A DNA stretch of 56,691 nucleotides from an uncultured Bacteroidales bacterium (GTDB lineage: Bacteria > Bacteroidota > Bacteroidia > Bacteroidales > Bacteroidaceae): positions 1 through 56,691 of the forward strand of contig CAMAMB010000009.1 in NCBI GenBank assembly GCA_945836755.1, given 5' to 3'. Made by a program: the position numbers and the translations under genes. Below the pieces are notes generated by a model. That model ran no database searches. It was not told the origin of the DNA and saw only the letters and a list, made by a program, of their open reading frames with translations. Position 1 is the stretch's first letter. The number at the start of each line of letters is the position of its first letter. Positions 1-19,932 of this stretch are shown here, piece by piece.

Positions 1-309
<309 letters not shown>

Positions 310-563: not shown

Positions 564-763
564 GAGTTTACCCCACATTTTTTCAAAAAAAATTGTTTTT
601 CCACCACTTCCACCCCTTTTTGACAGGCACAGATAGCAAAACACATGCCTCCAAACTCCCTCCTACCCCATCTTCATGCAGCATCCGCGGCGGCCCGCAA
701 GACCGACATCGCCAACCCCTATCACTCTAATGCTTCCCGTTTTTCCTACATGTACCTCTAAGA

Positions 764-1445
764 TTACCCCCTTACCTCGGGGAATGTGGGGGATGGAGAT
801 GGGCTTGGGTGTGAGAGGTGGGTGCGAAGTGGGGGGGAAGGAGGGAAAAGTGTGAGAAGTTGGGGCGATGGCGTGAGAAGATAGGATGCAGGGGAGATGT
901 GGGTGTGCTTGGGAGTGTGAAGGATGGAGGAAAGGTGTGCAAAGAATGGGGACGAAGTGTGGCTAATGGGGGCGAGAGTGTGAAAGAATGGGGTGCTGGG
1001 GAGATGTGGGTGTGCTCGGAGATACGAAGAATGGGGCGAGGGTGTGAAAGGATGGGTGCAGGGGAGAAGTGGATGTGCTTGGAGGTACGAAGGATGGGGG
1101 AAAGGTGTGCAAAGAATGGAGATGGGCTGTGACAAGGTTGGGTGCTGAGCGAAAACTGTGTGCTCAGACGTGTAAAGGATGGGAGAAGGTGTGCAAAGAA
1201 TGGGAGCGGGGCGTGGTAAGTGGGGGCGATGATGCGAAAGGTTGGGAGCTGGGCGCAAAGGGTGTGGTCGGACGTGTGAAGGATGGGGGAAGGTGCGCAA
1301 AGAATGGGAGCAATGATGCGAAAGGTTGGGTACTGGACGAAAAGTGTGTGCTGAGATGTGTGAAGCATGGAGGAAGGGACGCGAAGAATGGGAGCGGGGC
1401 GTGATAAGTGGGGGCGATGGCGTGAAAGGTTGGGAACGATGCTAT
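764..1445. repeat. Degenerate G-rich tandem repeat region
   Basis: The plus strand is strongly purine biased and built from recurring phrases: GTGCAAAGAATGGG, GTGTGAAGGATGGGGG, GAAAGGTTGGG and TGTGGGTGTGCT. These return in the same order about six times with unit lengths of roughly 65-105 bp. No open frame here resembles a protein; the Pro/His/Ser-rich minus-strand frames are products of the base bias. It lies between the 16S promoter and the recombinase gene. Confidence 0.75.
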
Positions 1446-1845
1446 TTATATATAGGTATTCTCTGGCGAGGGGCGTGGAAAGAGGGGCATGGCATGTAAT
1501 GGTGGCTTTGCCCTGTGACAACTGCTGAGGTTGCTGGGGGAGGGTGTGGGCAATGGCGGGTGTGTTGATGGGATGTGGGTGCGGTCGGAGGAATGAAGGA
1601 GGGGGAAGAGGCTATTTATATATAGGTGTTCTCGGATGAGGTATGGAGACTATATTATAATGTATGTGTGCCCACGGGTTAGGGGCGTGGGAAGATGGAC
1701 GTGGCTTGTTGTGGTGGTTTTGTGTTGCGACAGTTTCCCGGGATGCGGGGGAGAGGATGGGGACACGGAGAGAGAGTTAGTGTATAGGTAGCAGCTTGGG
1801 CGCGCATGGCTTGTAGCGATAGTTTTGCCCTGTGACAAGGGCCGG
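1441..1845. repeat. Two or three copies of a composite repeat next to the recombinase
   Basis: GCTATTTATATATAGGT occurs at 1441 and again at 1611, each followed by TTCTC and a GAGG-type block. GGGGCGTGG follows at about 1470 and 1682. A third element, TTTTGCCCTGTGACAA or a diverged form, occurs at about 1505-1520 (CTTTGCCCTGTGACAA), 1725 (diverged) and 1822-1838. The set looks like a decayed tandem duplication of a roughly 170-210 bp module. It is directly downstream of the recombinase stop codon, where attachment or recombination sites may be found, but no function is shown. Confidence 0.6.
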
Positions 1846-1892
1846 GGGCTGTTTGAGGGATGGGGGGGGCGATGGAGGGGGTGGGGCTTGTG

Positions 1893-2981
1893 TCAGTGGG
1901 GCATGATGTTGCGTAGGGCGAGGGACATTTTGGGTGCTTCTTTCAGGAGTTTGTTGCGTGTGACCTGGGCGTAGAGCTGGGTGGTGGTGACGCGCGAATG
2001 TCCGAGCATGACGCTGATAGTCTCTATGGAGACGCCTGAGGCGAGGAGGAGGGTGGCGAAGGTGTGGCGTGCCACGTGGAAGGTGAGTGGCTGTGTGAGT
2101 TGTAGCTTGGCGGCGAAGGTGTGGAGGTGTCGGTTGACGGTGCGGTTGTCGGGTACATAGAGCCATCCCTTCGCTCTGTCGGTGTGGCGTGGCAGGCTGT
2201 CGAGGAGGCGGAGGGCGGGTGGGAGCAGGCGTATGGTGGAGGGTTGTCCGGTCTTGGTTCTTTTTGTAGTGATCCATCCGCCTCCTGCTGTGTCTCGCTC
2301 GACGGCGTCGGGGGTGAGTTCGCGCAGGTCGCGCCAGGCAAGGCCTGTATAGCAGGAGAAGAGGAAGAGGTTGCGGACGTGGTCGGCGCAGCCTGTGAGT
2401 GGGAGGGCGGCGAGGCTTACGAGGTTGTGGCGCGAGAGATGTATGTAGCGGCGCGAGGGCGGGGGCAGCCGATAGTCGGCGAAGGGGTCGATGGTGATGA
2501 GGCCTCGGCGTGCTGCCTGTCGGAGCAGGGCTTTGAAGGTGGAGAGATAGAGGCGAATGGTGCCGGGGCGCAGGTGGAGGGTGTGTGAGAGGTGGCGGGC
2601 GAAGGCTGTGACGAAGGCGGGTGTGAGGTTGGCGAGGGTGAGGTCGGCTGGGCTGTGGCTGTGGTCTTTGGCATAATCGGGGGTGAAGAGGCGGAGGTGG
2701 CGCTGGAGGGTGAGGTACTTGCGCCAGGTGTTGAGACGGCAATGCTGTCCCACCTGGCGGCGCTTGTCTCTGACGGCGCTGTCTACGAACTCGAGGAGGG
2801 TGGGCCCTGAGGCGGGCGGGACGGACTGCGGGGCGAGGATGAGCTGCTGTCGGAGGAGGGAGAGGAGGGGGGCGACGTCGAGACGGAGGTCGAGGTTAAT
2901 CGTGCCGTTGGCCGGGCTGTCTGTCACTGAGGCCCTGGCGTCGAGTCGTACATAGAGGGGTGTGGGGGCGTCGTTTTTCAT
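1893..2981 (-). CDS. Tyrosine site-specific recombinase (integrase/invertase family)
   Basis: A 362-residue phage-integrase family enzyme that breaks and rejoins DNA through a tyrosine. A SAM-like core-binding domain spans about residues 60-165 and the catalytic domain about 185-350. The HVARH motif (His302, Arg305), LGHS (His328) and nucleophile Tyr337 in TTTQLYAQ are visible, with a beta-hairpin lysine in TTKRTKTG. The first catalytic arginine position reads TGLA instead of TGLR, a substitution also known in Bacteroidetes recombinases such as IntDOT. The start at 2981 (MKNDAPTPLY) is preferred because longer readings overlap the upstream lipoprotein gene. No excisionase, relaxase or transfer genes are nearby, so this is more likely a chromosomal invertase-type recombinase than part of an integrative element. 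It lies on the same strand as the left SusC/SusD locus and may act on the inverted repeats at 8862-9057 and 9473-9668 (inference). Confidence 0.9.
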   Translation of the reverse strand: MKNDAPTPLYVRLDARASVTDSPANGTINLDLRLDVAPLLSLLRQQLILAPQSVPPASGPTLLEFVDSAVRDKRRQVGQHCRLNTWRKYLTLQRHLRLFTPDYAKDHSHSPADLTLANLTPAFVTAFARHLSHTLHLRPGTIRLYLSTFKALLRQAARRGLITIDPFADYRLPPPSRRYIHLSRHNLVSLAALPLTGCADHVRNLFLFSCYTGLAWRDLRELTPDAVERDTAGGGWITTKRTKTGQPSTIRLLPPALRLLDSLPRHTDRAKGWLYVPDNRTVNRHLHTFAAKLQLTQPLTFHVARHTFATLLLASGVSIETISVMLGHSRVTTTQLYAQVTRNKLLKEAPKMSLALRNIMPH

Positions 2982-3006
2982 ATAGTTTGAGGGATGGTAA
3001 GACCGG

Positions 3007-3014
3007 TAAAAGTA
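3007..3014 (-). promoter_or_regulatory. Possible -7 element of the recombinase gene
   Basis: The minus strand reads TACTTTTA, one base from TAnnTTTG, about 26 nt before the chosen start codon. No clear TTTG lies at the right spacing upstream. The call is weak; the gene could also be read through from the susC locus if the hairpin at 3139-3178 leaks. Confidence 0.3.
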
Positions 3015-3138
3015 GTGGTTATATGGACATGACGCGTGGTGGGGGGACGGTCTATAGACCGGGAGGCAGGCCGGTGGTACGTGAGCCACTGCGTGCGCAT
3101 GGAGCCGGAGCGACGGTTGGGCGACAAGTATACGACAA

Positions 3139-3178
3139 GCAGGGGCAACGGCCGCTGTGTAGCGACTGCTGCCCCTGC
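3139..3178 (-). terminator. Hairpin after the left susC/susD operon
   Basis: GCAGGGGCA and TGCCCCTGC form a perfect 9-bp stem around a GC-rich loop, 18 nt after the stop of the lipoprotein gene. The downstream minus strand is TTGTCGTATA, only weakly U-rich. Confidence 0.55.
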
Positions 3179-3196
3179 TATGAGGTGAGGTCTGAT

Positions 3197-3982
3197 TTAT
3201 TCGTTCCAGGAGGTTACCTGGAATGTATCGAGGAAGTTGCCGAAAGAACCTGCGGATACGTAGTAGTTGAAGCCGAAGTAGAAGGTGTCGTTCTGGAAGA
3301 GGGCTACGTCGCCGGCCTCGTTGATGGGGATACACTTTCCTGTGACAAGACCATAAGTTGAGTGAGTGTAGCCTGTCTCATACTCCGGCTGGAGCATGGT
3401 TACCTCTGCTGCACCCTTCTCCCACTTGAAGAAAAGGTCGTAGCCCGGGGTTATCCACTCTCCGAGTCGATACTGGTCGTAGGTAGCGGAGTACTGGAGG
3501 GTTGTAGACCAGCCACTGAAGAGCTGTGACTTATAGACACCGGTGGCCACATCTGTGTAGTCGTTCTTGGAGAGCGTGAGGGTGATGAAGCCGTTGTTGG
3601 CGGGGTCGTACTCGTTGGTGCGGAGGCGGAGGGTGACGGTGTAACGGGTGAAGTACTTCATCTTGTCGTTGATTTTGAGGATGAAGGAGGCCCGGGTCTG
3701 CCCTTCTTCGAAGCTGACGGAGGCGGGCACCTCGAAGCAGTCGGCACCTACGATGTCAAGGCCCACCTTCTCACTGCCCTCTGCGGAGGCACGTAGGACG
3801 GTGAGTTCAATCTCGTTGTCTTCGGGGGCAAGCTCTGCCGAGTAGGCTAAACCTTCGGCAAATGTCATGCTGCTGGTCACGACGGGTTCGCCGGCGGGAG
3901 AGTATTCGTAGTCGTCGTCGCAGGCTGTGAGTGCCATCATTGCGGCTACGAAGATATAGCTGAGTTTGAATATCTTTTTCAT
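3197..3982 (-). CDS. SusCD-associated surface lipoprotein, unknown family
   Basis: A 261-residue lipoprotein. The signal peptide ends in a lipobox (MALTAC), followed by an acidic CDDDYEYS stretch typical of surface-exposed Bacteroidetes lipoproteins. The remainder is rich in beta-strand-like sequence, with a Calx-beta or fibronectin-like first half (EDNEIELTVLRAS). It is the third gene of the leftward susC-susD unit, 21 bp after susD, the usual place for a surface ligand-binding lipoprotein that hands substrate to the SusC/SusD pair. The ligand cannot be deduced, and no glycosidase or protease gene accompanies it. Family assignment (for example DUF4843-like) was not possible by eye. Confidence 0.75.
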   Translation of the reverse strand: MKKIFKLSYIFVAAMMALTACDDDYEYSPAGEPVVTSSMTFAEGLAYSAELAPEDNEIELTVLRASAEGSEKVGLDIVGADCFEVPASVSFEEGQTRASFILKINDKMKYFTRYTVTLRLRTNEYDPANNGFITLTLSKNDYTDVATGVYKSQLFSGWSTTLQYSATYDQYRLGEWITPGYDLFFKWEKGAAEVTMLQPEYETGYTHSTYGLVTGKCIPINEAGDVALFQNDTFYFGFNYYVSAGSFGNFLDTFQVTSWNE

Positions 3983-4003
3983 TGTGTGATAGGTTTAGGT
4001 GGG

Positions 4004-5647
4004 TTATTCAGACCACTCGTCGATGGTGTCTGAGGGGTCGGGGTTGTTGTACCCACGGACTGCGGCATTGTTATTGGCCTCGGTTCGGACGATGCAATAG
4101 TTCATCCATGCGGGGCGGTGGAGGGTGTTGTAGCGTGTGCCGGCATAGAAGTTGGTGCCGGGGTAGCCACGGAGCACACCGTAGTCGAGGCGCTTGATGT
4201 CGAAGAATGACTGTCCTTCGCCCCAGAGCTCGACGCGCTTCTGGAAGACGGTCTCTTCGACCACCTCTTCCTTGCTGTCGACGTAGCAGACGTATTCGGG
4301 GTCGCGGTAATCCTTCATGAACCTCTCGAGGAGCTGCTTGCCACGGTCGGGCTCTTGATGGGCAGCTGCCTCGGCCTCGATGAAGTACATCTCTTCGACG
4401 CGCATGAGGGGATAGCTGGAGGCGGAGGCTATGGAGGGGGTGTCGTAGTTGCCCTGTGCGGGGCGGAACTTGAGGGCTGTATAGTCGGGGAGTGTCTGCT
4501 GACACTCGACCTTGATGCCGTCGATGTAGCGGTTCTTCTCGGCGAGGAAGGATCCGGCGGGCGCCTTGAACTCATACTTGCGGAAGTCGGTGTCGCTGAT
4601 GCGCTCGTACATGTTGCGGTCGATCATGGCGAAGGGCATGCCCGGGTCGGGGGAGGTGTAGCCATAGAGGGTCTGGTTAGACATCCAGCTTGTCCAGTTG
4701 ATGATGCCGGACTGTACGAGGCCGTCTTCGGAGGTGAGGGTAGAGCCCCACATCCACTTTGTGATGTCGTTGAAGCCGGTTGTGGTGTTGAGGCAGTCAT
4801 CTTCGTTCATGGGGTTGACGGCTGCGGCGTCGATGGCCTTGCGTGCATACTCTTCGGCCTTGGGGTAGTCTTCTACCCACATGTAGAGGCGCGCTTTGAG
4901 GCCGTAGACACAGGCCAGGTCGGGGCGTGTGCCGCCGGCGCGGTCTTCGAGGAAGGGTATGAGCTCTTCGGCCTTGTTGAGGTCATCCTCGATGAAGGCC
5001 TTCATGACCTTGCGGTGGGCGCGTGGGTTGTTGCGGAGGGCTTCTTCGGTCATGCCTTCAATGACGATGGGCACGGTGAGAGAGTCGATGGGGTTTCCTT
5101 CGGTGCTGAGCGCCTCTGTGCCTACACAGGGGAGATACTCGTAGCAGCGTGCGAGGTCGAGGTAGGCCATGGCTCGGAAGGCATAACCTGCTCCGAGGTA
5201 GCCTTTCTGCTCGTCGGAGGCGGTCTCCATGTCGGCTCCTCCTACGACGACGTTAGCCGTGTTGACGAGGGCGTAGTAGTAGTTCCATATATACTGCATG
5301 TAGATGTAGCTATCGCCGAGGTAGCGGTTTTCTTCCCACCTCTTGAAGTTGTCGTAGCGCGACTCAGCACGGGGGGCATCAGCGGTCTGAAGGTCGCGAA
5401 TGACCATCATGGCGCCGTAGGCAAAGGTGAAGTGACCATAGTCGAACCACGAGGTAGAAGCGTTATTCATGTAGGCTGTCACACCATTGAGAGCACCCTC
5501 GAGAGCGGAGGCCGAATTGTTGACCTGCTCCTGGGTAGCGCTGTCGGTGGGGAAGGTTTCATCGGCACAGCCGGTAAGTCCGGTTCCCACCACAGCCGAG
5601 AGGCCGAGGCCGAGGAACAGCTTATTGAGATGTTTCATTGTAGTCAT
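4004..5647 (-). CDS. SusD/RagB-family nutrient-binding lipoprotein (left locus)
   Basis: A 547-residue outer-membrane lipoprotein that forms the lid of a SusC transporter. The lipobox GLTGCADE is near residue 27. The TPR-like helical SusD core includes YYYALVNTANVV, GAGYAFRAMAYLDLARCYEYLP and LKARLYMWVEDYPKAEEYARKA (segments shortened). The C-terminal RagB segment carries YPLMRVEEMYFIEAEA and KRVELWGEGQSFFDIKR, both hallmarks of the family. A second in-frame Met (MKHLNK) at 5638 is an equally good start. It follows susC by 93 bp and precedes the third-gene lipoprotein by 21 bp, so all three are probably co-transcribed from the promoter near 9235-9265. Confidence 0.95.
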   Translation of the reverse strand: MTTMKHLNKLFLGLGLSAVVGTGLTGCADETFPTDSATQEQVNNSASALEGALNGVTAYMNNASTSWFDYGHFTFAYGAMMVIRDLQTADAPRAESRYDNFKRWEENRYLGDSYIYMQYIWNYYYALVNTANVVVGGADMETASDEQKGYLGAGYAFRAMAYLDLARCYEYLPCVGTEALSTEGNPIDSLTVPIVIEGMTEEALRNNPRAHRKVMKAFIEDDLNKAEELIPFLEDRAGGTRPDLACVYGLKARLYMWVEDYPKAEEYARKAIDAAAVNPMNEDDCLNTTTGFNDITKWMWGSTLTSEDGLVQSGIINWTSWMSNQTLYGYTSPDPGMPFAMIDRNMYERISDTDFRKYEFKAPAGSFLAEKNRYIDGIKVECQQTLPDYTALKFRPAQGNYDTPSIASASSYPLMRVEEMYFIEAEAAAHQEPDRGKQLLERFMKDYRDPEYVCYVDSKEEVVEETVFQKRVELWGEGQSFFDIKRLDYGVLRGYPGTNFYAGTRYNTLHRPAWMNYCIVRTEANNNAAVRGYNNPDPSDTIDEWSE

Positions 5648-5740
5648 GTTGTTGGGTTTATCTTTCTTGGTATTCGCCCTGCGGTGTGGCGGCCTTCGCT
5701 GAGTGAAGGCGCCACAGAGGCCGGGACGTAAGCAGTCAGA

Positions 5741-8700
5741 TTAGAGGGTGATGGTGACACCGCCTGAGATGGTACGCATGGGGCGATAGTATGCCTGTGA
5801 GGCTCCGCCGCCGATGCTCTGACGGGGGTCGAGGCCTTTGCGTTTAGACCAGGTGTAGAGGTTGTCGCCCACGACGTAGAGGCGGAGACTCTCTACGCCT
5901 ACGAACTTGGTCCACTTCTTAGGCAGGGTGTAGCCAAGGGTGATGTTGCTGAGCGTGATGTAGGAGGCGTTGGTCAGGAAGCGGTCAGAGGAGGAAGCCG
6001 TGGCGTCGTCCTTGTACTGGAGACGGGGGATGTTGGAGTTGGGATTGTCGTACGACCAGGCTTTGAGTATGTCCTTGTGCATGGCTTTGCCGGGAGTGAC
6101 GCTCATGAGGCTGGCATAGTCGGAGTCGTAGACGTAGCCACCAATCTGGTACTGGAAGTCGACGCTGAGGTCGAAGCCGAAGGCCGAGAACTTGGTGCCG
6201 AAGCCGCCGTAGAAGTCGGGCATGACGTCGCCCCAGCAGTAGTCGGTGGCATCGTTGTAGCTGTCGGTCTTGACGCGCTTGGTCACCTCATTGCCATTCT
6301 CGTCGGTGGTCACCTTGTCCATCCAGTAGAGGGCCTTACCCGTTTCGGGGTCTACGCCTGCATACTTGCGACCGAACATGGTGTAGGCGCTTCCGCCCTC
6401 GGAGTAGAAGTAGCTGCCGCTGGAGTAGCCTTCCTTGCCGTCGACTATTTGGGTCTTACGTTCGTCGGGCAGGCGGGTGATTTCGTTGTGGTTGCTGGTG
6501 ATGTTGGCGTAGAGTGTCCACTGTATCTTGCGGGTGCGAATGACGTCGCCGCTGAGCTCAATCTCGACACCGTTGTTGCGCACGTCGCCGATGTTGGCAT
6601 AGTATCCGCCGAAGCCTGCGGTGGCAGGGAGGGGGAAGTAGAAGAGCATGTCGTTGGTCTTGTTGGAGTAGTACTCGATGCTACCCGAGAGACGGTCGTT
6701 GAGCACGCTGAAGTCTATGCCGACGTTGAACTTGGCGTTCTTCTCCCAGGAGATGTCCTTGTTGCCTTTGTGGGTGGGCACGATGGATACCTGGTTGTTG
6801 CTGTTGACTATCTTATAGCCGTTGGTGTAGAGGTAGGGGTCGATGTTGTCGTTACCGTTCTCGCCGTAGGATGCCTTGAGCTTGAGGTAGTTGACCCAGG
6901 AGACGTTGAACCACTTCTCCTTGTCGATGAGCCAGCCGGCGCCCACGCTCCAGAAGGAGCCCCAGCGGTTGTCAGGGTGGAAGATGGACGAGGCCTGACG
7001 CACGTAGCTGACAGAGGCAAAGTACTGGTCGTTGAAGCTATATGAGGCGCGGCCGAGCCATGACTCGGTGTTGTAGTCGCTGGTGGACGACCCTGCCGAG
7101 CCCATGACTACGGCGCCGTCGAGCTCGCTGTTTTCGGGCGAGAACTGGTTAGACTTGTCGGCGTTGATGCCGTAGCCGTAGAGGGTGTATGCTTCGTGGG
7201 CGGCCATCAGCTCGACGCTGTGCTTGCCGAAGGTCTTGGCCCAGTCGAGGCGCTGCTGGTAGTTGGTGCTCCAGTTGCGGGAGTGGCTCTTGTAGACCTG
7301 GCCTCCGAGATCGGCGTACTGGCCGTAGAAGGAGTTGGTGGTGCTGGTGGTGCGGCTCTCGCGGAGGTAGACGTTGTTGATGGAGGTGAACTTGAAGCCC
7401 AAGGGGAGGGTTACCTCGAAGGTACCTGTACCGTTGAAGGTGTTGCCTTCAGAGTTGTAGATGTCGAGGAGGGCTGAGCCAATGGGGTTGGCCTGCAGAT
7501 AGGCCGAAGCCGGGCGCGAGAGGCCTATGGCGCCGTCGCCGTAGTCGTAGCGCTTCACGCCTGCCACATTGTCGTAGAGTATGTTGCCGTGCTCGTCGCG
7601 GATGTACATGGGGTAGATGGGGGCTACGCTCACCATGCCAAACATGTTGCCGCTCGACCCGTCGGCTCCTTCGCTGCCGAGGCGGTCGCGGTTGAAGTGT
7701 GAGTAGGCCATGTTGACACCGACCTTGAGCCAGCGCTTGAGCTGCTGGTCGGCCTTGAAGCGGGCGCTGAAGCGCTTGTAGTCGGAGGCTACGGTGATAC
7801 CCTCGTTGTCCAGATAGTTGGCCGAGGCGTAGAAGGAGCCGCGGTCGTTGGCGCTCTGCACGCTGACGGTGTACTCCTGGCGGAATCCTGTGCCGTAGAC
7901 CTCGTCTTCCCAGTCGTCGGGAGTGAGCAGGTACTTCTCGCCGTTATACTCTATGACGTTACCGAGGATGGCTGCGGGGTTGAGCTTTCCGTTGGCGCCT
8001 ATCATCATCTGGCCTTCGGGCACGCTGTAGACGTTGTATCCCAGGCCGTAGTTGCCGTCGATAAGGTTGTTGTTGGCCCAGAGCCATGCGGAGCGTGCAT
8101 CGAGGCCGCTATTGTTGACGGCGTAGTTGTAGAGGGCCTTGTACCAGAGCTCGTAGTAGCCTGCGGCGCTCTTCACGGTCTCATACTCGGAAGTGGCCTT
8201 AGAGTTGACGCCCCACTTGCCGTCGAAGGTCACCTTGGCGCCTTCATGGGCCTTGGCTCTCTTGGTGGTGATGAGGATGACGCCGTTACCGCCGCGCGCA
8301 CCGTAGAGTGAGGTGGAGGCAGCGTCTTTTAGCACGGTCATGCTCTCCACGTCGGTGGGGTTGATGTCATTGAGGCTGCCGTCGTAGGGTGAGCCGTCCA
8401 CGACGATGAGGGGCGAGTTGCCTGCGTTGAGCGAGTTGACACCGCGTATGCGGATACTGGGTTCTGTGCCGGGCTGGCCGGAGGAGCTGTAGATTTGTAC
8501 ACCCGAAGCCTTGCCCTTGAGAGCGTCTACGGCGTTGGTCACCTGCACCTTGCCTATCTCGTCAGCACCGACGATGGCGGCCGAGCCTGTGAAGGTGGCC
8601 TTCTTCTGCGTACCGTAAGCCACAACCATGGCTTCGTCGAGCAGTTTGTCGTTGTCCTTCAGCACAATCTTGACGTTACCGGCGATGGAGACGGTCTGAG

Positions 8701-8938
8701 CCGCCTTGCCGATGTAGGTCACAGAAATCTTCTTGGCAGAAGCCGGCACATTCTGGAACGTGAAGTTACCATTGACATCGGTGGACGACTTCAGCTTAGA
8801 GCCTTCGATGCTCACTGAGGCACCGACGATGGGCTCGCCGTGGGCGTCAACCACACGTCCAGTCACGCGCTTCTGTGCGGAGGCCGTTGCCGCGGTCAGC
8901 AGCAAGCCGGCTCCCAAGAGCACTAACTTTTTGTTCAT
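5741..8938 (-). CDS. SusC/RagA-family TonB-dependent transporter (left locus)
   Basis: A 1065-residue outer-membrane barrel that imports a ligand captured by SusD, powered by TonB. The order is signal peptide (residues 1-21, ending ASAQ), a carboxypeptidase-regulatory-like beta-sandwich (about 25-95), the SusC signature DEAMVVAYGTQKK (TonB-box region), a plug domain with IRIRGVNSLNAGNSPLIVVDG and SLYGARGGNGVILITTKR, then the 22-strand barrel to the end. The signal peptide is identical in amino acids to that of the divergent susC at 9592, and the nucleotides are nearly so. The start at 8938 is fixed by this conservation. A consensus promoter reading toward this gene lies in the intergenic segment, so this locus looks like the ON copy in the sequenced orientation. 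The ligand is unknown. Confidence 0.96.
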   Translation of the reverse strand: MNKKLVLLGAGLLLTAATASAQKRVTGRVVDAHGEPIVGASVSIEGSKLKSSTDVNGNFTFQNVPASAKKISVTYIGKAAQTVSIAGNVKIVLKDNDKLLDEAMVVAYGTQKKATFTGSAAIVGADEIGKVQVTNAVDALKGKASGVQIYSSSGQPGTEPSIRIRGVNSLNAGNSPLIVVDGSPYDGSLNDINPTDVESMTVLKDAASTSLYGARGGNGVILITTKRAKAHEGAKVTFDGKWGVNSKATSEYETVKSAAGYYELWYKALYNYAVNNSGLDARSAWLWANNNLIDGNYGLGYNVYSVPEGQMMIGANGKLNPAAILGNVIEYNGEKYLLTPDDWEDEVYGTGFRQEYTVSVQSANDRGSFYASANYLDNEGITVASDYKRFSARFKADQQLKRWLKVGVNMAYSHFNRDRLGSEGADGSSGNMFGMVSVAPIYPMYIRDEHGNILYDNVAGVKRYDYGDGAIGLSRPASAYLQANPIGSALLDIYNSEGNTFNGTGTFEVTLPLGFKFTSINNVYLRESRTTSTTNSFYGQYADLGGQVYKSHSRNWSTNYQQRLDWAKTFGKHSVELMAAHEAYTLYGYGINADKSNQFSPENSELDGAVVMGSAGSSTSDYNTESWLGRASYSFNDQYFASVSYVRQASSIFHPDNRWGSFWSVGAGWLIDKEKWFNVSWVNYLKLKASYGENGNDNIDPYLYTNGYKIVNSNNQVSIVPTHKGNKDISWEKNAKFNVGIDFSVLNDRLSGSIEYYSNKTNDMLFYFPLPATAGFGGYYANIGDVRNNGVEIELSGDVIRTRKIQWTLYANITSNHNEITRLPDERKTQIVDGKEGYSSGSYFYSEGGSAYTMFGRKYAGVDPETGKALYWMDKVTTDENGNEVTKRVKTDSYNDATDYCWGDVMPDFYGGFGTKFSAFGFDLSVDFQYQIGGYVYDSDYASLMSVTPGKAMHKDILKAWSYDNPNSNIPRLQYKDDATASSSDRFLTNASYITLSNITLGYTLPKKWTKFVGVESLRLYVVGDNLYTWSKRKGLDPRQSIGGGASQAYYRPMRTISGGVTITL

Positions 8939-9057
8939 AAACTAAACTATTATATTAAACATTGTGTCTCTGCAGATGGTAGGGCGACGCCCCCGCAAGG
9001 CTGCGGGATACGGTGCGTCGGGCGATGCATAACTTGTGGCACAAGTTGTGCACGGCG
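8862..9057 (-). repeat. Left copy of the inverted repeat flanking the susC intergenic segment
   Basis: Read on the minus strand, this copy aligns to 9473-9668 on the plus strand over about 196 bp with roughly 20 differences (about 90% identity, hand count). It spans the 5' leader, the start codon and the signal-peptide codons of susC. Coding differences between the copies are synonymous. Identity falls sharply just past the RVTG codons. The two copies enclose a 415-bp segment (9058-9472). Confidence 0.9.
9026..9052. promoter_or_regulatory. 27-bp dyad inside the left inverted repeat (candidate recombination site)
   Basis: Two 13-bp arms of form TGCAyAACTTGTG meet around one central base. Only the fifth position breaks the symmetry in this copy. 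The matching dyad in the right repeat is at 9478-9504. Such a dyad could be a recombinase or regulator site, or an RNA hairpin in the leader. Confidence 0.6.
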
Positions 9058-9234
9058 GGGAGGCAGGTCAAGCAGTCGGGCAGCAAGGGGTAATACTTGC
9101 TGACGCGTCTCTCTGTCTGTTTAGCTTTGTGGGCAATCTCCCAGCCGTCATCCCGAGCCATCGGTGGCGATAAGAAAGAGCCATCTCATTATCAGTGGCG
9201 TAGGCTTCCAATGCGCCCAAGATGCTTCAAGCGG

Positions 9235-9265
9235 CAAAAGTAGGCCTTTATATTTGTTCTGCAAA
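9235..9265 (-). promoter_or_regulatory. Promoter of the left susC operon, inside the invertible-looking segment
   Basis: Minus strand: TTTG at 9265-9262, exactly 19 nt, then TACTTTTG at 9242-9235, a full match to the Bacteroidetes consensus. The start would be near 9228, giving a leader of about 290 nt that includes the inverted repeat and its dyad. No match of equal quality faces the right susC. The best rightward candidate is TTTG at 9253-9256, 18 nt, then TTATTTTG at 9275-9282, which has one mismatch and short spacing. Confidence 0.75.
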
Positions 9266-9472
9266 ATTTATCTTTTATTTTGAGCTGCTTTTTTAACACT
9301 TTGGGGCATTTTGTCTGCTTTTTGGCAGCTACAACTGCCATCTTGCTATGTAGGAGGGGTATTTGCTTCACTTGTGGACAAATGGCGGTGATGTGAAGGG
9401 ATGTTATCGAGCGTCTCTGCCATATAACCATGAGGGTATGAGGCTGCGGCGACGGGCGGGAAGGGGGACTTT

Positions 9473-9668
9473 CGCCGTGCACAACTTGTGCCACAAATTG
9501 TGCATCGCCCCGACGCACCATATCCCGCAGCCTGGCGGGGGCGTCACCGACATTAGCCAGAGACACAATGTTTAATATAATGGTTTAGTTTATGAACAAA
9601 AAGTTAGTGCTCCTCGGGGCCGGCTTGCTGTTGACCGCAGCAACGGCCTCTGCACAGAAGCGCGTGAC
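9473..9668 (+). repeat. Right copy of the inverted repeat flanking the susC intergenic segment
   Basis: Matches the left copy base for base through CCGTGCACAACTTGTGCC, the GACGCACC / TATCCCGCAGCCT block, AGAGACACAATGTTTAATAT and the signal-peptide codons. A short tract about 40 nt before the start codon (around 9545-9558) is the only badly diverged part. Confidence 0.9.
9478..9504. promoter_or_regulatory. 27-bp dyad inside the right inverted repeat
   Basis: Counterpart of 9026-9052. The arm TGCACAACTTGTG faces its near-perfect reverse complement (12 of 13 positions) around one central base. It lies about 88 bp before the right susC start codon, the same relative position as in the left copy. 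Confidence 0.6.
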
Positions 9669-12600
9669 GGGTACGGTGGTCGACGAGGCCGGCAACCCCG
9701 TAGTAGGCGCTCAAGTCAAGGTTCAGGGCGCGAAGATCGTTACGACGACCGACGCCAACGGCAAGTTCACGCTCTCCAGCGTGCCCGCCAACGCCAAGCA
9801 CCTTAACGTCAGCTACATCGGCATGAACGCTGCCACTGTCTCCATCAGCGGCAACGTCAGCGTCGTGTTGCGCGAGAACCAGCAAAACCTCAACGAGGCC
9901 TACGTCGTGGCTTACGGCCGCGCCACCAAGGCTTCATTCACCGGTGCCGCCACCAAGATCAAGGGCGACATCGTTGAGGCCAAGTCTACCACCGAGGTAA
10001 CCCAGGCCCTCACCGGTGAAGCCGCAGGCGTGCAGGTAATCCAGAGCGACGGTAACCCCGGTAGCTCCTCCAGCATCGTCATCCGCGGTATCGGCTCGCT
10101 CAACAGTAGCATCGAGCCTCTCATCATCCTCGACGGCATGCCTTACGCCGGCAGCTTCTCCAGCATCGACCCCAAGGACATCGCCTCCATCGACATCATG
10201 AAAGACGCCACCGCAGCCGCCCTCTACGGCTCTCGCGGCGCCAACGGTGTGCTCATCATCACCACCAAGCGCGGAGAGCAGGGCAAGCTGACCATCGGCG
10301 CCGATGTCAAGTATAGCGTCAGTGGCCGCTGGCTGCCCACCTACGACGTCATCACCTCGCCTGAGCGCTACACCGAGCTCTCATGGGAGAGCCTCAAGGG
10401 CTACGCCTCTATCCTCGGCGGCTTTAGCGACGACCGCGCTGCTGCATGGGCCAGCCAGTACCTCTTCACCGATAAAACAGGCCTCGGCGAAGGCTACAAC
10501 ATGTGGAACGCCGACGGGGCTGACCTCATCGACCCCGAGACCGGACGCTTCTACAGCGGCATCACCCGCAAGTACAACCCCGAGAAGTGGGAGGACGCCC
10601 TCTTCCGCACCGGCCAAAAGTTTGACGGTAGCATCAACATCTCCGGCGGCAACGAGCGCACCCAGTTCTACACCTCCGTGGGCTACACCAAGGACAAGGG
10701 CTACCTCGTGGGCGCCGACTTCCAGCGCTTCAGCCTCCGCTCCAACGTCGACACCAAGATTACCTCTTGGCTGAAGGGTAACGTCAACGTGGCCTACTCT
10801 AACCTGGAGTACAACCAGCCCGTGCAGGATGGCGGTGCTTCCAACAACGCCCTCTACTTCGTCAACAACTGCCCCGCCATCTACCCCGTCTACTTCCACG
10901 ACGAGGAAGGCAAGCGTGTGAAGGACGAGCTCGTAGGCGGCTATCGCTACGACTACGGTACTGAGTACGAACGTGTCTACGCCTGGGGCCTCAACCCCGC
11001 AGGCTGCGCCAACCTCGACGAGAACAACACCGTCATCGACCAGTTCACCGGCAACGGCCGCTTGGAGGCTACCTTCCTGAAGGACTTCCGTCTCTCGGCC
11101 GGCCTCGCCTATACCTATTATAAGAGCCATAACTACGTGCTCACCAACCCCTTCTACGGCGATGCCGAAGGCCTGGGCCGCTTAGACGACGAGCAGGCTG
11201 AGCGCCGCACCATCACCGGCAACCAGATACTCAACTGGAGCCACCAGTTCGGCGGTGTGCACAACGTGAGCGCCTTCGTGGGTCACGAAACCCACTGGAC
11301 CAACAACGAAATCTTCTACGCCTCTAAGAATAACCTCGTACGCTCCAACGACCACTCTCTCGGCAACGCCGTGGTCATCGACGACGTCACAGGCTACTCC
11401 TACGGCTACTCACTCGACAGCTACTTCGCTCAGGTGGCTTACGACTACGACAACAAGTACTTCTTCAACGCTGCCTACCGCGCCGACGGCTCCAGCCGCT
11501 TCGCCAAGGGCAACCGCTGGGGTAACTTCGGCTCTGTCAGCGCTGCGTGGAACATCACCCGCGAAGCCTTCATGCAGAACCAGAACATCCTGAAGAACCT
11601 CAAGCTCAAGGCCAGCTGGGGTCTCATCGGTAACCAGAGCATCGGTGTGAGCGGAACCCTCGCCTACTATCCCTACACCGACATCTACGCCCTCCGCACC
11701 ATGGGCACCGACCCCTCCTTCGTGTTCAACGCCAAGGGTAACAAGGACCTCACCTGGGAAAAGACTTCCAACTTCAACGTGGGCCTCGAGTTCAACATCC
11801 TCGACATCGTAGAAGGTGAAATCGACTACTTCAACAAGCTCACCTACGACATGATCTATATGAAGAATACGCCTAACTCCATCGGCTACCCTTCCTATCC
11901 TGTCAACGATGGCGAAATGCGCAACTCCGGTATAGAGTTCAGCCTTACCGCCCACGCCCTCAAGACCAAGAACGTCAGCCTCGACGTACGTCTCAACGGT
12001 GCACACTACAAGAACGAGATGACGAAGATGCCTCTCGACGAAATCACCGGCCGTCCCAAGGACTTCTACCAGACCTCCTACTACGGATGGCAGAAGGGAC
12101 ACAGCATCTACGACTTCTACCTCCGCCACTACGAAGGCGTCAACCCCGACAACGGTAACGCACAGTGGACACAGTACGTAGCCACCTACGAAGACGGTAC
12201 TCAAGAGTACGTGACCGACATGGAGCTCTTCAAGAGCCAGCACAGAGGCCAGAAGTACAGCCTCTCCAAGGAGACCACTGAAGACTGGACCACCGCCACC
12301 AAGTACTACATCGGCGAGAGCGCCATCCCCACCCTCACCGGCGGCTTCGGCTTCGACCTCCGCGTCTACGACTTCACCCTCAGCACCACCTTCGCCTATG
12401 CGCTCGGAGGCAAGGCCTTCGACTACACCTACCAGAGACTCATGGCCGACGGCAAAGTAGGCTCTAACAACTGGCACAAAGACATCGAAAACCGCTGGCA
12501 GAAGCCCGGCGACGTGACCGACGTGCCTCGCCTCACTAACGAAGCCACTCAAGAAAGCCTCTACGCCAATGGAACCTCAGACCGCTGGCTCACCAGCCGC

Positions 12601-12828
12601 AGCTTCCTCAGCCTCAGCAGCATTCAGCTTAGCTGGAATCTGCCCGAACGCTGGAGAGAGCGCATCGGCTTCGTCAAGGGCGCACAGCTTTACGTCTCCG
12701 GCGAAAACCTCTTCTATCTCTCCGCTCGCAAGGGCTTCTTGCCCGGCACCTCACTCACAGGTACCAGCAGCGACGCGCAGTATCTCCCCTCCTCTAACGT
12801 CACCTTCGGCCTGAAGGTCAACTTCTAA
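9592..12828 (+). CDS. SusC/RagA-family TonB-dependent transporter (right locus)
   Basis: A 1078-residue SusC-type barrel. The signal peptide (residues 1-21) is identical to that of the left SusC. Then come the carboxypeptidase-regulatory-like domain (about 25-95), NEAYVVAYGRATK in the TonB-box position, the plug with IVIRGIGSLNSSIEPLIILDG and ALYGSRGANGVLIITTKRG, and the barrel. Beyond the signal peptide the protein is clearly diverged from the left paralogue, so the ligand probably differs. susD follows after 51 bp. No strong promoter faces this gene in the present orientation of the upstream segment, so it may be silent in the sequenced cell line, subject to inversion (inference). Confidence 0.96.
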   Translation: MNKKLVLLGAGLLLTAATASAQKRVTGTVVDEAGNPVVGAQVKVQGAKIVTTTDANGKFTLSSVPANAKHLNVSYIGMNAATVSISGNVSVVLRENQQNLNEAYVVAYGRATKASFTGAATKIKGDIVEAKSTTEVTQALTGEAAGVQVIQSDGNPGSSSSIVIRGIGSLNSSIEPLIILDGMPYAGSFSSIDPKDIASIDIMKDATAAALYGSRGANGVLIITTKRGEQGKLTIGADVKYSVSGRWLPTYDVITSPERYTELSWESLKGYASILGGFSDDRAAAWASQYLFTDKTGLGEGYNMWNADGADLIDPETGRFYSGITRKYNPEKWEDALFRTGQKFDGSINISGGNERTQFYTSVGYTKDKGYLVGADFQRFSLRSNVDTKITSWLKGNVNVAYSNLEYNQPVQDGGASNNALYFVNNCPAIYPVYFHDEEGKRVKDELVGGYRYDYGTEYERVYAWGLNPAGCANLDENNTVIDQFTGNGRLEATFLKDFRLSAGLAYTYYKSHNYVLTNPFYGDAEGLGRLDDEQAERRTITGNQILNWSHQFGGVHNVSAFVGHETHWTNNEIFYASKNNLVRSNDHSLGNAVVIDDVTGYSYGYSLDSYFAQVAYDYDNKYFFNAAYRADGSSRFAKGNRWGNFGSVSAAWNITREAFMQNQNILKNLKLKASWGLIGNQSIGVSGTLAYYPYTDIYALRTMGTDPSFVFNAKGNKDLTWEKTSNFNVGLEFNILDIVEGEIDYFNKLTYDMIYMKNTPNSIGYPSYPVNDGEMRNSGIEFSLTAHALKTKNVSLDVRLNGAHYKNEMTKMPLDEITGRPKDFYQTSYYGWQKGHSIYDFYLRHYEGVNPDNGNAQWTQYVATYEDGTQEYVTDMELFKSQHRGQKYSLSKETTEDWTTATKYYIGESAIPTLTGGFGFDLRVYDFTLSTTFAYALGGKAFDYTYQRLMADGKVGSNNWHKDIENRWQKPGDVTDVPRLTNEATQESLYANGTSDRWLTSRSFLSLSSIQLSWNLPERWRERIGFVKGAQLYVSGENLFYLSARKGFLPGTSLTGTSSDAQYLPSSNVTFGLKVNF

Positions 12829-12879
12829 GAGAGGCAGAAATCCAAGAAAGGTTCAACTCCAATATTTTTAGATGAAATC

Positions 12880-14463
12880 ATGAACACAAATAAGATATTC
12901 AAATGGGCTGCAGGCGCGCTCTGCCTCACCGCCGCGGTGGGCACCACCTCTTGCGCCGACAGCTTCCTTGATCGTGAGCCCGACGGCTACTACGCCACCA
13001 AAGATCAAATCGCCGAGGCTGCCAAATGGAACCCCAGCACCATGCTGGGTACCATGAATGGCGTCAACACCAAGCTTACTCAATGGCGTGCCGGCGGTTC
13101 AACCAACCAGGACGACTTCGGACAGAAGAGCGTCGATATAGCCACCGACCTCATGTCGGCCGACATGGTCTTCTCACGCGGCTGTGACTACGGATGGTTC
13201 CGCAACGATGCCCGACTGCTCAACGCCTACAGCACGGCCAACCGCACCGCCATCATCTGGAACACCTACTACCGCATCATCTACGCCGCCAACAACAGCC
13301 TCGAGTTATTGGGTGCCGAAGAGCCGGAAAACCCTGAGCAGAAGATGTATTGGGCTGCTGCCAAGACGGCACGCGCCTTCGCCTACTACAACCTCGTCAT
13401 CAACTACGCCCGCAGCTACGACCAGAGCAAGGACATGAAGATCCTGCCCCTCATCACCAGCCTTGTCTCCAGTCCTCAGGCACCCGCCAAGGTGAGCGAG
13501 ATCTACGACTTCATCCTTAGCGAACTTGACGAAGCCTACATGGCTTACGCCAATGCCGCCGGCGAGGGATACGTCTTCAGCACCATCGACATGCCTAACT
13601 TCGACGTCAACCAGATCATCAAGGCATACACCCTGATCTACCGCGGACTGCCCGCCGACGGCCAAGACAAACCCCTCTCCGACTACCAGATGGCATACAA
13701 TGCCGCCACTAAGGCCATCACACTGGCCACAAACATCAACGGCAAGAGCATCCTGCCCGCAGCACAGCTCTACGATGGCTTCAACTCCGTCGACAACGTT
13801 AGCTGGCTCTGGGGCATCGACATCGACAACCTCAGCACCGGCGGTCTCTGCACCTTCTGGGGCATGATGGACTACTACACCTACGGCTACACTGCTGCCG
13901 GCGACGTCAAGTCTATCAGCGCAGAGCTCTTCAACGAGATACCCGACAGCGACGGCCGCAAGTCATGGTTCGGCTTCTACAGCGGAGCCGACTTCGTACA
14001 GGTGCCCTCTCTGCTCCTGCCCGTCAACAAGTTCTATGACAGTGGCCGCGTGCCCATGGGCGACCGCAACTGGCGCAACGACATCCACTTCTTCCGCATC
14101 GAAGAGGCTTACCTCCTCGCCGCTGAGGCCGCAGTACGCATGGGCGATAAGGGCAAGGCCATCGAAGCCCTCATGCCCCTCCTCGCTGAGCGCGACGAGA
14201 ACAAGATGATGACCCTGCCCACCCTCAGTCTCGAACAGCTCATGGACGAAATCTACTTCAACTGGCGCGTAGAGCTCTGGGGCGAAGGCAAGACCCTCCA
14301 GACCGCCCGCCGCTTCAAGAAGACCATCGAACGTCCCAGCAACGACTACTTCGGCGCACCCATCGGCCCCAAGAGCTACAACGACAAGAGCTTCTACTTC
14401 TCCATTCCTCGCTACGATCTGGAGAACAACCCGCTCATGGTTGACGCCGACATCATTCAGTAA
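12880..14463 (+). CDS. SusD/RagB-family nutrient-binding lipoprotein (right locus)
   Basis: A 527-residue outer-membrane lipoprotein, partner of the SusC at 9592. The lipobox VGTTSCADSFLDREP near residue 25 is classical for SusD (the SFLDREP run follows the lipid-bearing Cys). TPR-like helices include YRIIYAANNSLELLG and ARAFAYYNLVINYAR. The C-terminal domain has HFFRIEEAYLLAAEAAVRMG and NWRVELWGEGKTLQTARRFK. Unlike the left locus, no third lipoprotein gene follows; the operon ends in a strong terminator. Confidence 0.95.
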   Translation: MNTNKIFKWAAGALCLTAAVGTTSCADSFLDREPDGYYATKDQIAEAAKWNPSTMLGTMNGVNTKLTQWRAGGSTNQDDFGQKSVDIATDLMSADMVFSRGCDYGWFRNDARLLNAYSTANRTAIIWNTYYRIIYAANNSLELLGAEEPENPEQKMYWAAAKTARAFAYYNLVINYARSYDQSKDMKILPLITSLVSSPQAPAKVSEIYDFILSELDEAYMAYANAAGEGYVFSTIDMPNFDVNQIIKAYTLIYRGLPADGQDKPLSDYQMAYNAATKAITLATNINGKSILPAAQLYDGFNSVDNVSWLWGIDIDNLSTGGLCTFWGMMDYYTYGYTAAGDVKSISAELFNEIPDSDGRKSWFGFYSGADFVQVPSLLLPVNKFYDSGRVPMGDRNWRNDIHFFRIEEAYLLAAEAAVRMGDKGKAIEALMPLLAERDENKMMTLPTLSLEQLMDEIYFNWRVELWGEGKTLQTARRFKKTIERPSNDYFGAPIGPKSYNDKSFYFSIPRYDLENNPLMVDADIIQ

Positions 14464-14510
14464 TCCCACAGCCACCGGCCCGACCCGGTAGCCGTACATA
14501 TCCTCACATA

Positions 14511-14549
14511 GAGGCAGCCGCCCCCACAACGGACGGCTGCCTCTTTTTT
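14511..14549 (+). terminator. Rho-independent terminator of the right susCD operon
   Basis: Perfect 10-bp stem GAGGCAGCCG / CGGCTGCCTC with a 13-nt loop, followed by six T residues, 47 bp after the susD stop. Confidence 0.9.
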
Positions 14550-14616
14550 GCCGGAAGCATGGCAGGTTTTACCTCCAATGCTTCCGGCTTATTTTATAGG
14601 TATAAGGGTATTTTCT

Positions 14617-14700
14617 ACATGTACATCCGGTTTCGCCCACATGTACATCCGGTTCCTCCTACATGTACATCCGGTTTCGCCCACATGTACATCTAAGATT
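14617..14700. repeat. 22-bp repeat array A (4 units)
   Basis: ACATGTACAT at 14617, 14639, 14661 and 14683, a strict 22-bp period. The intervening 12-mers begin CCGGTTTC, CCGGTTCC, CCGGTTTC and CTAAGATT. Same family as the arrays at 20155, 26945 and 43932. Confidence 0.9.
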
Positions 14701-14716
14701 TCCATGCCCCCGCGAA

Positions 14717-14896
14717 GCCGTGTCTACATGCCTTGAAGCCGTCCCCGGAAGCCTTCGCGCGAATGAAATCTGCCCCAATGTCAGGTTGCATTGGGCCGAA
14801 TGCCACCTTGCTTCCGCCCGAAAGCAAGGTGACATCCGCCCGAATGTCACTCGCGCAAAGGCTTCCGGCAACGGCAAAACGCCTTGCCGACACAGC
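14717..14896. repeat. 180-bp foldback element with nested hairpins
   Basis: The outer arms (about 14717-14769 and 14846-14896) are imperfect reverse complements, including GGAAGCCTTCGCGCGAATG against CACTCGCGCAAAGGCTTCC (two mismatches) and GCCGTGTC against GACACAGC. Inside are a CCCAATG / CATTGGG hairpin and a longer CACCTTGCTT / AAGCAAGGTG hairpin. The result is a cloverleaf-like fold. It could be a MITE-like remnant or a structured RNA. It sits beside the mnmA fragment. Confidence 0.65.
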
Positions 14897-15105
14897 AAGG
14901 CGGCAAGGCGACACATGGCCATAGTCTTTGAGATAGTCCGACCGTAAGCCCACAGGAGGGGCAACCGCGTGCGCCCCGCGGCTACACCCTCTGCACATTA
15001 CTGCACGCGTGTTCCTAAAGAGGGCAACCGCGCGCCCCTCGTCAAAACCTGATGATAAATCCTGCCCGTGTGCCCATGAAAGGGCAAATAGATGAGGATA
15101 GGACG

Positions 15106-15283
15106 TGAGGCGCGAGAGCTTGATGTCTTCTTCGGCGGTGCAGGTGAGGCCTTCACCCTGCGGGCCGATTTCGATGTAGTAGAGGTCGGGCCTGATGCCG
15201 TGGCAGCAAAGCAGGTGGCAGGCTACGGCCGAGTCGACGCCGCCCGATATGAGCAGGCAGTAGCGCGGAGAGAGAGCGGTCAT
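15106..15283 (-). pseudogene. mnmA: mnmA remnant (tRNA 2-thiouridylase, N-terminal fragment)
   Basis: About 59 residues match the start of a Bacteroidetes tRNA-specific 2-thiouridylase: the PP-loop [10 protein letters not shown], then [28 protein letters not shown]. After SRL the frame stays open but no longer resembles the enzyme; the catalytic cysteines and the rest of the roughly 350-residue protein are absent. The break at about 15105 is followed by GC-rich degenerate sequence and the foldback element, which suggests deletion or insertion plus decay. A functional copy is expected elsewhere in the genome. Confidence 0.7.
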
Positions 15284-15309
15284 GGGGAGGGTTGACAGTA
15301 GGACATGAA

Positions 15310-15348
15310 AAGGCCGGGTGGTAAGCCGCGAGGCCGCACACACCCGGC
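15310..15348 (-). terminator. Terminator of the metY gene
   Basis: GCCGGGTG and CACCCGGC form an 8-bp stem. On the minus strand the stem is followed by CTTTTC. It lies 46 bp after the metY stop codon. Confidence 0.6.
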
Positions 15349-15393
15349 AGCAAGTCAGGTTTTTGTGTATATACAGAAGACTCTTAGACCGTG

Positions 15394-16683
15394 TCAGACG
15401 GCGTCGAAGGCCGTGTTGAGGGCGTCGATGAGGTCGTCGATGTGCTCGGTACCTATGCTGAGGCGTATGGTGGCAGGGGTGATGTGCTGCTCAGCCAGCT
15501 CAGTGGGCGACATTTGCGAGTGGGTGGTGGTGTAAGGGTGGATGACGAGGCTCTTGACGTCGGCCACATTAGCCAGGAGCGAGAAGATGGGGAGGGAGTC
15601 GATGAAGCGCCAGGCTTCTTCCTGCCCGCCCTGAATCTCGAAGGTGAAGATGGAGCCTGCGCCTTGTGGAAAATAGCGGCGGTAGAGGGCGTGGTCGGGG
15701 TGAGAGGGCAGCGAGGGATGGTTGACGCGAGCCACCTTGGGGTGACGGCTCAGAAAGTCGACCACCTTGAGGGCGTTGCTCACGTGGCGCTCTACGCGCA
15801 GCGAGAGGGTCTCTAAGCCCTGAAGCAGAATGAAGGCGTTGAAGGGCGAGAGCGTGGCGCCGGTGTCGCGAAGCAGGACGGCTCGTATGCGGGTGACGAA
15901 GGCGGCGGGCCCGGCCACGTCGGCAAAGACGGCGCCGTGGTAAGAGGGATCGGGCTTGGCCAGGGTGGGAAACTTGTCAGGCTGCGCCTTCCAGTCGAAC
16001 GAGCCGCCGTCGACGATGACGCCACCCAGGCTGGAGCCGTGACCACCGATGAACTTGGTGGCAGAATGCACTACAACGTCGGCCCCATGCTCGAGGGGGC
16101 GTATGAGATAAGGTGTTCCGAAGGTATTGTCGACGATGAAGGGGATGTGGTGTCGGTGGGCCACTTCAGCCACAGCCTCTAAGTCGGTCACGTCGCTGTT
16201 GGGATTGCCAAAGGTCTCGGCGTAGATGGCCTTTGTCTCGGGACGAATGGCCGCTTCGAGGGCAGCGATGTCGTTAATGTGGACAATGGTGTGAGTAATG
16301 CCCTGCTGCGAGAGCGTATGGGTGATGAGATTGAACGTACCTCCGTAGAGATTGTCGGCAGCCACCACATGGTCGCCCTGGGTGAGTATGTTCTGAAGGG
16401 CATAGGTGGCAGCGGCAGCCCCACTGGCAACGGCCAGTCCGGCCACTCCGCCCTCGAGAGCCGCCACGCGGTCCTCAAACACGCCTTGGGTAGAGTTGGT
16501 CAGACGGCCGTAGATGTTGCCGGCATCACGCAGGCCGAAACGGTCGGCAGCGTGCCGGCTGTTGCGAAACACGTAAGAAGTGGTCTGATAGATGGGCACG
16601 GCGCGCGCGTCGGTGGCGGGGTCGGGCTGCTCCTGTCCTACGTGCAGCTGGAGGGTCTCGAAGTGTAGCTTCTTCTGTGTCAT
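15394..16683 (-). CDS. metY: O-acetylhomoserine sulfhydrylase (Cys/Met PLP enzyme)
   Basis: A 429-residue PLP enzyme of the cystathionine gamma-synthase fold, probably converting O-acetylhomoserine plus sulfide to homocysteine in methionine synthesis. Visible motifs are [10 protein letters not shown] at the N terminus, [38 protein letters not shown] with the PLP-binding Asp, and the Schiff-base lysine in [13 protein letters not shown]. The length fits OAH sulfhydrylases (about 425-430) better than cystathionine gamma-synthases (about 380-400). It is transcribed divergently from an Lrp/AsnC regulator, with the -7 elements about 50 bp apart, so Lrp control is likely. Confidence 0.92.
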
Positions 16684-16728
16684 GATGAGTAGGTCTTATT
16701 TAGATAATGTGTAGATGTTTTACGACTG

Positions 16729-16759
16729 CAAAGGTAGGGGCTAAAGAATTTGTGACCAA
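16729..16759 (-). promoter_or_regulatory. Promoter of metY
   Basis: Minus strand: TTG at 16759-16757, 20 nt, then TACCTTTG at 16736-16729. The leader is about 40 nt. Confidence 0.7.
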
Positions 16760-16787
16760 GTTATAGCTAAAACTCGAAACATTTATC

Positions 16788-16795
16788 TACCTTTG
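16788..16795 (+). promoter_or_regulatory. -7 element of the Lrp/AsnC gene
   Basis: TACCTTTG on the plus strand, back to back with the metY promoter. No good TTTG lies about 20 nt upstream, so the promoter may be weak or activator dependent. The leader to the start at 17019 would be about 215 nt; nothing else is recognised in it. Confidence 0.5.
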
Positions 16796-17018
16796 CGGCA
16801 GCAGGTAGAAAATACGCCATACAAGGACGCCCCTTCCGGCCCGCTCAGCCGAATAATTTTCTGCCTCATAGAGCAGCCCCGCCGCCCCGGACGCCCGGCT
16901 GAGACCGGCCACGGGCCTCTTTCAGCCACGGCAGGGGCCGCGCAAAGGCTTCTGAGGGGCCTCCTACCCCACCCCGCCCCACCCCAACGGCTTGTCACAA
17001 CCACTTCAAACCTCGCCC

Positions 17019-17471: not shown

Positions 17472-17496
17472 CGCACCGGGCGCGACGACAGAAGGC

Positions 17497-17527
17497 TTGG
17501 CCGCGTGACCCTTTCTGCCTACCTTTG
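17497..17527 (+). promoter_or_regulatory. Promoter of the DUF3298 lipoprotein gene
   Basis: TTG at 17497-17499, 20 nt, TACCTTTG at 17520-17527. The leader is about 50 nt. The promoter begins 26 bp after the Lrp gene stop. Confidence 0.75.
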
Positions 17528-17583
17528 CAGCATGCTGCCCATGGAAGGCAGCCAGTCTCAGTATATAGTAATATATAATAGGT

Positions 17584-19506: not shown

Positions 19507-19529
19507 TCCACTCTCAACGATATACCTCC

Positions 19530-19913: not shown

Positions 19914-19932
19914 CCCTCCGCCACATACACTG

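Follow-up and report, generated by a model that had tools for sequence, protein, structure and literature searches.

A candidate two-state inversion switch setting one promoter before either of two divergent susC/susD operons in an uncultured Bacteroidales bacterium

SusC/SusD pairs are exposed on the cell surface and determine which nutrients Bacteroidales import. The closest described systems for switching them are the susC/susD shufflons of Bacteroides fragilis (region EE of NCTC 9343 and the Tsr0667 clusters of YCH46), in which, according to the available part of the account, an invertible promoter serves alternative pairs, and the ragA/susC homologues that follow it have start codons overlapped by inverted repeats (PMC5729914). 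Tsr0667 is the recombinase named for susC/susD clusters in the accessible sections of two reports (PMC4747536, PMC11852207). More generally, the Bacteroidales invertons, as far as the accessible text describes them, carry a promoter between inverted repeats that is ON or OFF according to orientation and often lie near susC/susD or capsule genes (PMC10939037); in another partly available source, recombinase genes are enriched near some inverton groups, and an inverton's promoter does not as a rule drive the invertase encoded nearby (PMC11892184).

The locus described here shares with the B. fragilis shufflons its switched susC/susD pairs and repeats that overlap the susC start codon. Where the shufflons bring several cassettes to a promoter, however, this locus has two divergent operons and one small promoter segment; a set of three or more cassettes of the B. 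fragilis type was not found in the assembly, which holds two copies of the repeat arm. The site (ACTTGTGNCACAAGT) and the genus are also different, and so, probably, is the recombinase. Tsr0667 is a tyrosine recombinase and its site reportedly follows the consensus AGTYYYN4GDACT, to which the window contains no match. As in the invertons of capsule and surface genes, a promoter, recognised by its motif, stands between inverted repeats, but its orientation would choose between two operons and not between on and off, and the repeats run into both coding sequences, unlike those of Bacteroidales invertons. The kind of mechanism is therefore known from the Bacteroides susC/susD shufflons, while the site, the two-state layout and probably the recombinase differ. 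Neither the site nor a toggle of one promoter between two operons is described in the available parts of the literature searched, from which subscription papers were mostly missing, and this is weak evidence of absence.

The window, by which we mean the whole stretch of 56,691 nucleotides analysed, is one entire contig out of the 94 that make up a 2.25-Mb assembly, which is 84.8% complete. The two operons diverge, the left lying wholly on the minus strand and the right on the plus strand. The left operon comprises a susC gene of the TIGR04056 family (5741-8938, 1065 aa), a susD gene (4004-5647, 547 aa, SusD Pfam family) and a third gene (3197-3982, 261 aa) whose product has a lipoprotein-like N-terminus, judged by eye; this product has no match in Pfam or NCBIfam and is in part conserved in genome G012. 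The right operon comprises a susC gene, again TIGR04056 (9592-12828, 1078 aa), and a susD gene (12880-14463, 527 aa, SusD Pfam family), both with intact frames. Overall the two SusC proteins are 38% identical, and solved structures provide only general SusC/RagA relatives that do not indicate the substrates. The locus lies beside an rRNA operon, since the contig begins within a 16S rRNA gene (1-310, minus strand). Genes for TauE/SafE and DUF1634 proteins are found at 18553-19913, and G012, G051 and G056 likewise have such genes near susC genes that carry the leader common to the genus, in varying order and orientation, which suggests repeated rearrangement here.

An earlier note on this DNA had described 196-bp inverted repeats, about 90% identical, around 415 bp between the divergent susC genes, with both start codons and the signal-peptide codons inside them, and this description was borne out. 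In a search of the assembly the right arm (9473-9668, plus strand) matched the left arm (8862-9057, minus strand) on the opposite strand at 90% identity (E 4.8e-70) and nothing else at E<=0.001, so that two copies are present and no third, with the proviso that the sequence missing from an 84.8% complete assembly could hide one. Each arm consists of an inner palindrome, the 5' leader, and the start codon and signal-peptide codons of its susC, and the unique segment between the arms (9058-9472) carries the promoter. Residues 1-25 of the two proteins are identical, and the nucleotide differences over these codons are therefore synonymous. An assembly artefact is unlikely, since about 10% of sites are different between the arms and no exact inverted match within 8801-9700 is longer than 30 nt; in 12 mononucleotide shuffles the longest such match was 8-10 nt.

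Outward from the centre, the two sides have an identity of 0.28 between -150 and -120 relative to the start codon, 0.88 over the remaining 120 nt up to that codon and 0.92 over the first 77 nt of codons, falling to 0.64 and then 0.58 just past the arms. One small correction to the earlier description is that the outer part of each arm, next to the ATG, is a susC leader found across the genus, with matches of 30-112 bp in 28 of 58 genomes (its own included), and because this leader is common to the susC genes of the genus the arm is not wholly private to the two operons. The running of the identity outward into the genes requires a duplication of the leader in addition to any site-specific inversion.

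At the inner edge, where homology between the arms begins, is placed the 15-bp palindrome ACTTGTGNCACAAGT, as part of a near-palindrome, TGCACAACTTGTGSCACAAGTTGTGCA, from which each copy departs by one substitution, at differing positions; the inner 38-nt arms are separated by 415 nt. These are the candidate crossover sites. The left copy is a 27-bp near-palindrome around ACTTGTGCCACAAGT (9026-9052, minus strand, core 9032-9046), and the right copy (9478-9504, plus strand, core 9484-9498) has one mismatch, ACTTGTGCCACAAAT; their centres lie near 9039 and 9491. Among the 58 genomes of the genus the exact pattern ACTTGYGNCRCAAGT occurs at seven places in six genomes, against one genome for a reversed control pattern. 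Four of these places fall within unrelated open frames, and the other three are the left arm of the window and both of two susC leaders in a second genome of the genus, G057; the right copy of the window has one mismatch against this pattern. Across the family, the palindrome followed by a start codon was found at 19 places in 17 of 399 genomes (reversed control, six places), with two places per genome in G000 and G057 alone and one in each of the other 15 genomes, which were judged from printed letters. The site pattern had no match in a scan of IMG/VR. That the palindrome marks the edge of homology both in the window and in G057 supports the guess, made in the earlier note, of a short crossover site. 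A REP-like or otherwise dispersed repeat was ruled out: the inner half of the arm, with the palindrome and a stem-loop (9473-9556), finds nothing better in the rest of the assembly than a 29-base match of E 0.0036, and the longer palindrome pattern, even with up to two mismatches, is confined to its own genome among the 58.

The segment carries a single strict promoter motif, TTTG-N19-TACTTTTG (9235-9265, minus strand), which points towards the left susC, with a -7 box that ends 297 nt before the ATG. The pattern TTTG-N17..21-TAnnTTTG occurs twice in the 56.7-kb window where 0.13 occurrences are expected, and none of 100 shuffles contained two. Between 9058 and 9590 there is no strict promoter for the right susC and susD; the best rightward match there reaches 9/10, with a faulty -7 box (start 9253), while another (9226-9256, plus strand, TTCA-N19-TATATTTG) scores 8/10. 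When the segment was shuffled (mononucleotide, n=300), 10/10 was reached once and 9 or more 31 times. These matches agree with what had been read from the letters, a perfect promoter leftward and an imperfect best match rightward. The further proposal that inversion would hand the promoter to the right locus and leave the proteins unchanged is supported by an inversion performed in script between the palindrome centres, after which the 10/10 promoter stands in front of the right susC and neither gene has its start codon or signal-peptide codons altered; the inversion itself we infer. The promoter was identified by motif alone, and the same motif precedes, in a similar place, the susC of left type in G012, a gene with 77% nucleotide identity to the left susC of the window; G012 has no exact palindrome, nor any divergent susC within the 1.5 kb examined.

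In line with the left operon, about 215 bp past the lipoprotein-like gene and outside the segment between the arms, lies a gene for a tyrosine recombinase (1893-2981, minus strand, 362 aa from the probable start at 2981, in a frame open to 3335) with the domains PF13102 and PF00589. It accounts for one of four Phage_integrase matches in the assembly, and no NCBIfam family scores above its cut-off. The frame is open, and inspection by eye finds the presumed catalytic K, HVARH, GH and Y positions kept. The first-arginine motif is TGLA and not TGLR, a replacement common to many Bacteroidetes integrases. Relatives are found at E<=0.001 in 57 of the 58 genomes of the genus, its own included, the best outside its own genome being an N-terminal piece in G057 (40%, E 3.6e-49), accompanied by a C-terminal piece that is 55% identical over 58 residues; the two pieces were treated separately, unjoined. 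At E<=1e-45 matches are present in two of 301 family genomes (its own and G057) and in one of 393 genomes of the order, its own, a set in which the membership of G057 is uncertain. In a tree the recombinases of the window and of the G057 locus form one clade with support of 100/97; the tree holds a subset of the integrases of the genus (40 rows, 37 of them different, taken from loci already fetched as the best 40 frames by blastp, with those under 250 aa dropped), and the clade has five rows but two genes, that of the window and the G057 piece.

Among the 58 genomes of the genus, those with the paired site and those with a recombinase match better than 1e-45 are the same two, that of the window and G057. 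Were site and recombinase scattered at random, such a co-occurrence would have a chance of about 6e-4, or of 1 in 57 if the pair in the window is assumed from the start; the limit was set after the list of matches had been seen, and it matters, since the next-best matches in the genus begin at 6e-43. The proposed link of this tyrosine recombinase to the site is drawn from this co-occurrence in two genomes.

The locus in G057 parallels that of the window in its palindrome, its leader edge, its promoter motif and its recombinase clade. Two susC leaders with ACTTGYGNCRCAAGT lie 24.2 kb apart on G057:C6 in inverted orientation. The two genes have an identity of 0.26 upstream of the site; this rises to 0.988 in the 81 nt that precede the ATG, stays at 0.98 for the first 352 nt of the coding frame and drops to about 0.70 beyond. 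One gene (B) has a 10/10 promoter, about 290 nt from the palindrome compared with about 190 nt in the window, while the other (A) has the palindrome and no strict promoter within 700 bp. The G057 locus differs in the length of its segment, 24.2 kb, and in having the recombinase pieces inside it: the C-terminal piece lies upstream of susC A, and the N-terminal piece, also on that strand, is about 21 kb distant, past two integrase genes. It seems that the recombinase gene was split by an integrated element with two integrases, which would account for the present length of the segment, and given this split the G057 switch may be frozen. The G057 locus also contains many short repeats, both inverted and direct, around CCCGACGCG(A/G)GACGCGTCGCCCCCATTAG (L107 7481-8222 and 15264-16000; L106 9237-9413). 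C-terminal pieces of tyrosine recombinases stand beside two tandem integrase genes at five places in four genomes (G006:C14:30299-30511, G006:C1:367032-367235, G056:C6:364778-364990, G011:C10:37491-37655 and G057:C6:43440-43613), as though recombinase genes were a target for integrative elements at their conserved HxxRHTFAT codons.

Inverted arms with an edge palindrome that recurs in a second genome, a strict promoter for just one of the two sides and a recombinase clade that co-occurs with the site together indicate site-specific inversion, and our essential contention is that the locus is a two-state DNA-inversion switch in which one promoter serves two susCD operons, a reading to which we give a probability of roughly 0.72. 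We propose that a segment of about 450 bp between the two inverted palindromic sites carries the single promoter, which, as assembled, would drive the left susC, susD and lipoprotein-like gene and possibly the recombinase gene as well. A tyrosine recombinase, most likely that at 1893-2981, would cut and rejoin the DNA at the palindromes and so turn the segment, after which the same promoter would stand 297 nt before the right susC, and a given cell would produce a single one of the two importers. Both SusC proteins would be unchanged, because each gene has its own copy of the leader, start codon and signal-peptide codons beyond the crossover site. The palindrome at the homology edge, the parallel locus in G057 and the recombinase gene beside the left operon are additions to the earlier reading. 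Drawn as it is from a single assembly, through its repeats, palindromes, promoter motif, operons and recombinase gene and the parallel in G057, the promoter switch is well supported but short of proven; we infer the inversion of the segment, the role of this recombinase in it, the cutting at the palindromes and the dependence of transcription on the strict promoter.

Several features count against the switch. The one assembly of the species shows the segment in a single orientation, the identity that extends into the genes calls for a leader duplication besides inversion, the palindromes differ by single substitutions, the recombinase has the TGLA motif and is encoded outside the segment, and a recombinase gene that may be under the promoter it inverts is at odds with the rule for invertons given in the available part of PMC11892184. 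In addition, the right operon might be transcribed without inversion, because the 8/10 rightward site, despite TTCA at -33, has a good -7 box, TATATTTG (9249-9256). This box would suit a fixed divergent regulatory region with a strong leftward and a weaker rightward promoter, whose leaders would owe their near-identity to a recent duplication or to selection and which does not invert, and the leader shared across the genus would likewise account for part of the similarity without recombination. We consider such a region improbable, though it is the most serious of the competing explanations: the genus leader accounts solely for the part of the arm nearest the ATG, the inner half has no good match elsewhere in the assembly, and neither the matching recombinase nor the position of the palindrome at the homology edge, seen in the window and in G057, is explained.

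The palindrome and stem-loop could instead be a post-transcriptional or protein-binding control element, such as a hairpin, attenuator or operator, copied along with the leader. Both arms of the window fold better than shuffles (z -2.7 and -2.1), and the palindrome core stands 93 nt before the start codon in both, as a control element might. In G057, however, the leader folds no better than shuffles (z -0.07) and, as aligned, lacks the stem-loop part, the distance from promoter to palindrome varies between the two loci, and the palindrome of susC A persists where there is no strict promoter, all of which makes this explanation quite unlikely. Rfam at gathering score over 1-20000 returned the end of the 16S rRNA alone, and thus no known RNA element in the leader. 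A former switch, now inactive, with relic arms, drifted sites and the left orientation fixed, would fit the one substitution in each palindrome and the split recombinase gene of the nearest parallel, but we think it very improbable when the window's recombinase frame is open with its catalytic positions kept, and the right susC and susD are intact.

The history of the right susC deserves comment. A scan of genome contigs with the right SusC gave 71 loci, which played no part in the comparisons made here. Over its whole length the body of the right SusC is nearest to a protein of G036, at 60% identity, yet from -30 to +76 the right susC is 0.49 identical to the G036 gene and 0.93 identical to the left susC in ungapped comparison. 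The G036 signal peptide seems to be one codon shorter, which would put the coding part out of register; over the last 30 nt before the start codon alone, the identity to the G036 gene is 0.43. The G036 gene has an unrelated leader and adjoins a phosphoglycerate-mutase-like gene (named by eye). The right susC thus looks like a chimera with a front that matches the left susC, and the same is seen in G057. Such a front is required by a switch of this kind, but a one-time duplication could also have produced it. Since the body is nearest to a protein whose gene has an unrelated leader, and the leader is close to that of the left susC, we raise tentatively, as something we would not expect on present indications, that the leader site is also a cassette port, at which the rare recombinase clade and its palindrome would let the genus both alternate two susCD pairs and bring in new ones.

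If the switch operates as proposed, the locus would be a compact case in which to test division of labour between importers. A palindrome some 55-95 nt ahead of a susC start codon would be a signature by which more such loci may be found, and the pairing of recombinase and site would be testable in E. coli.
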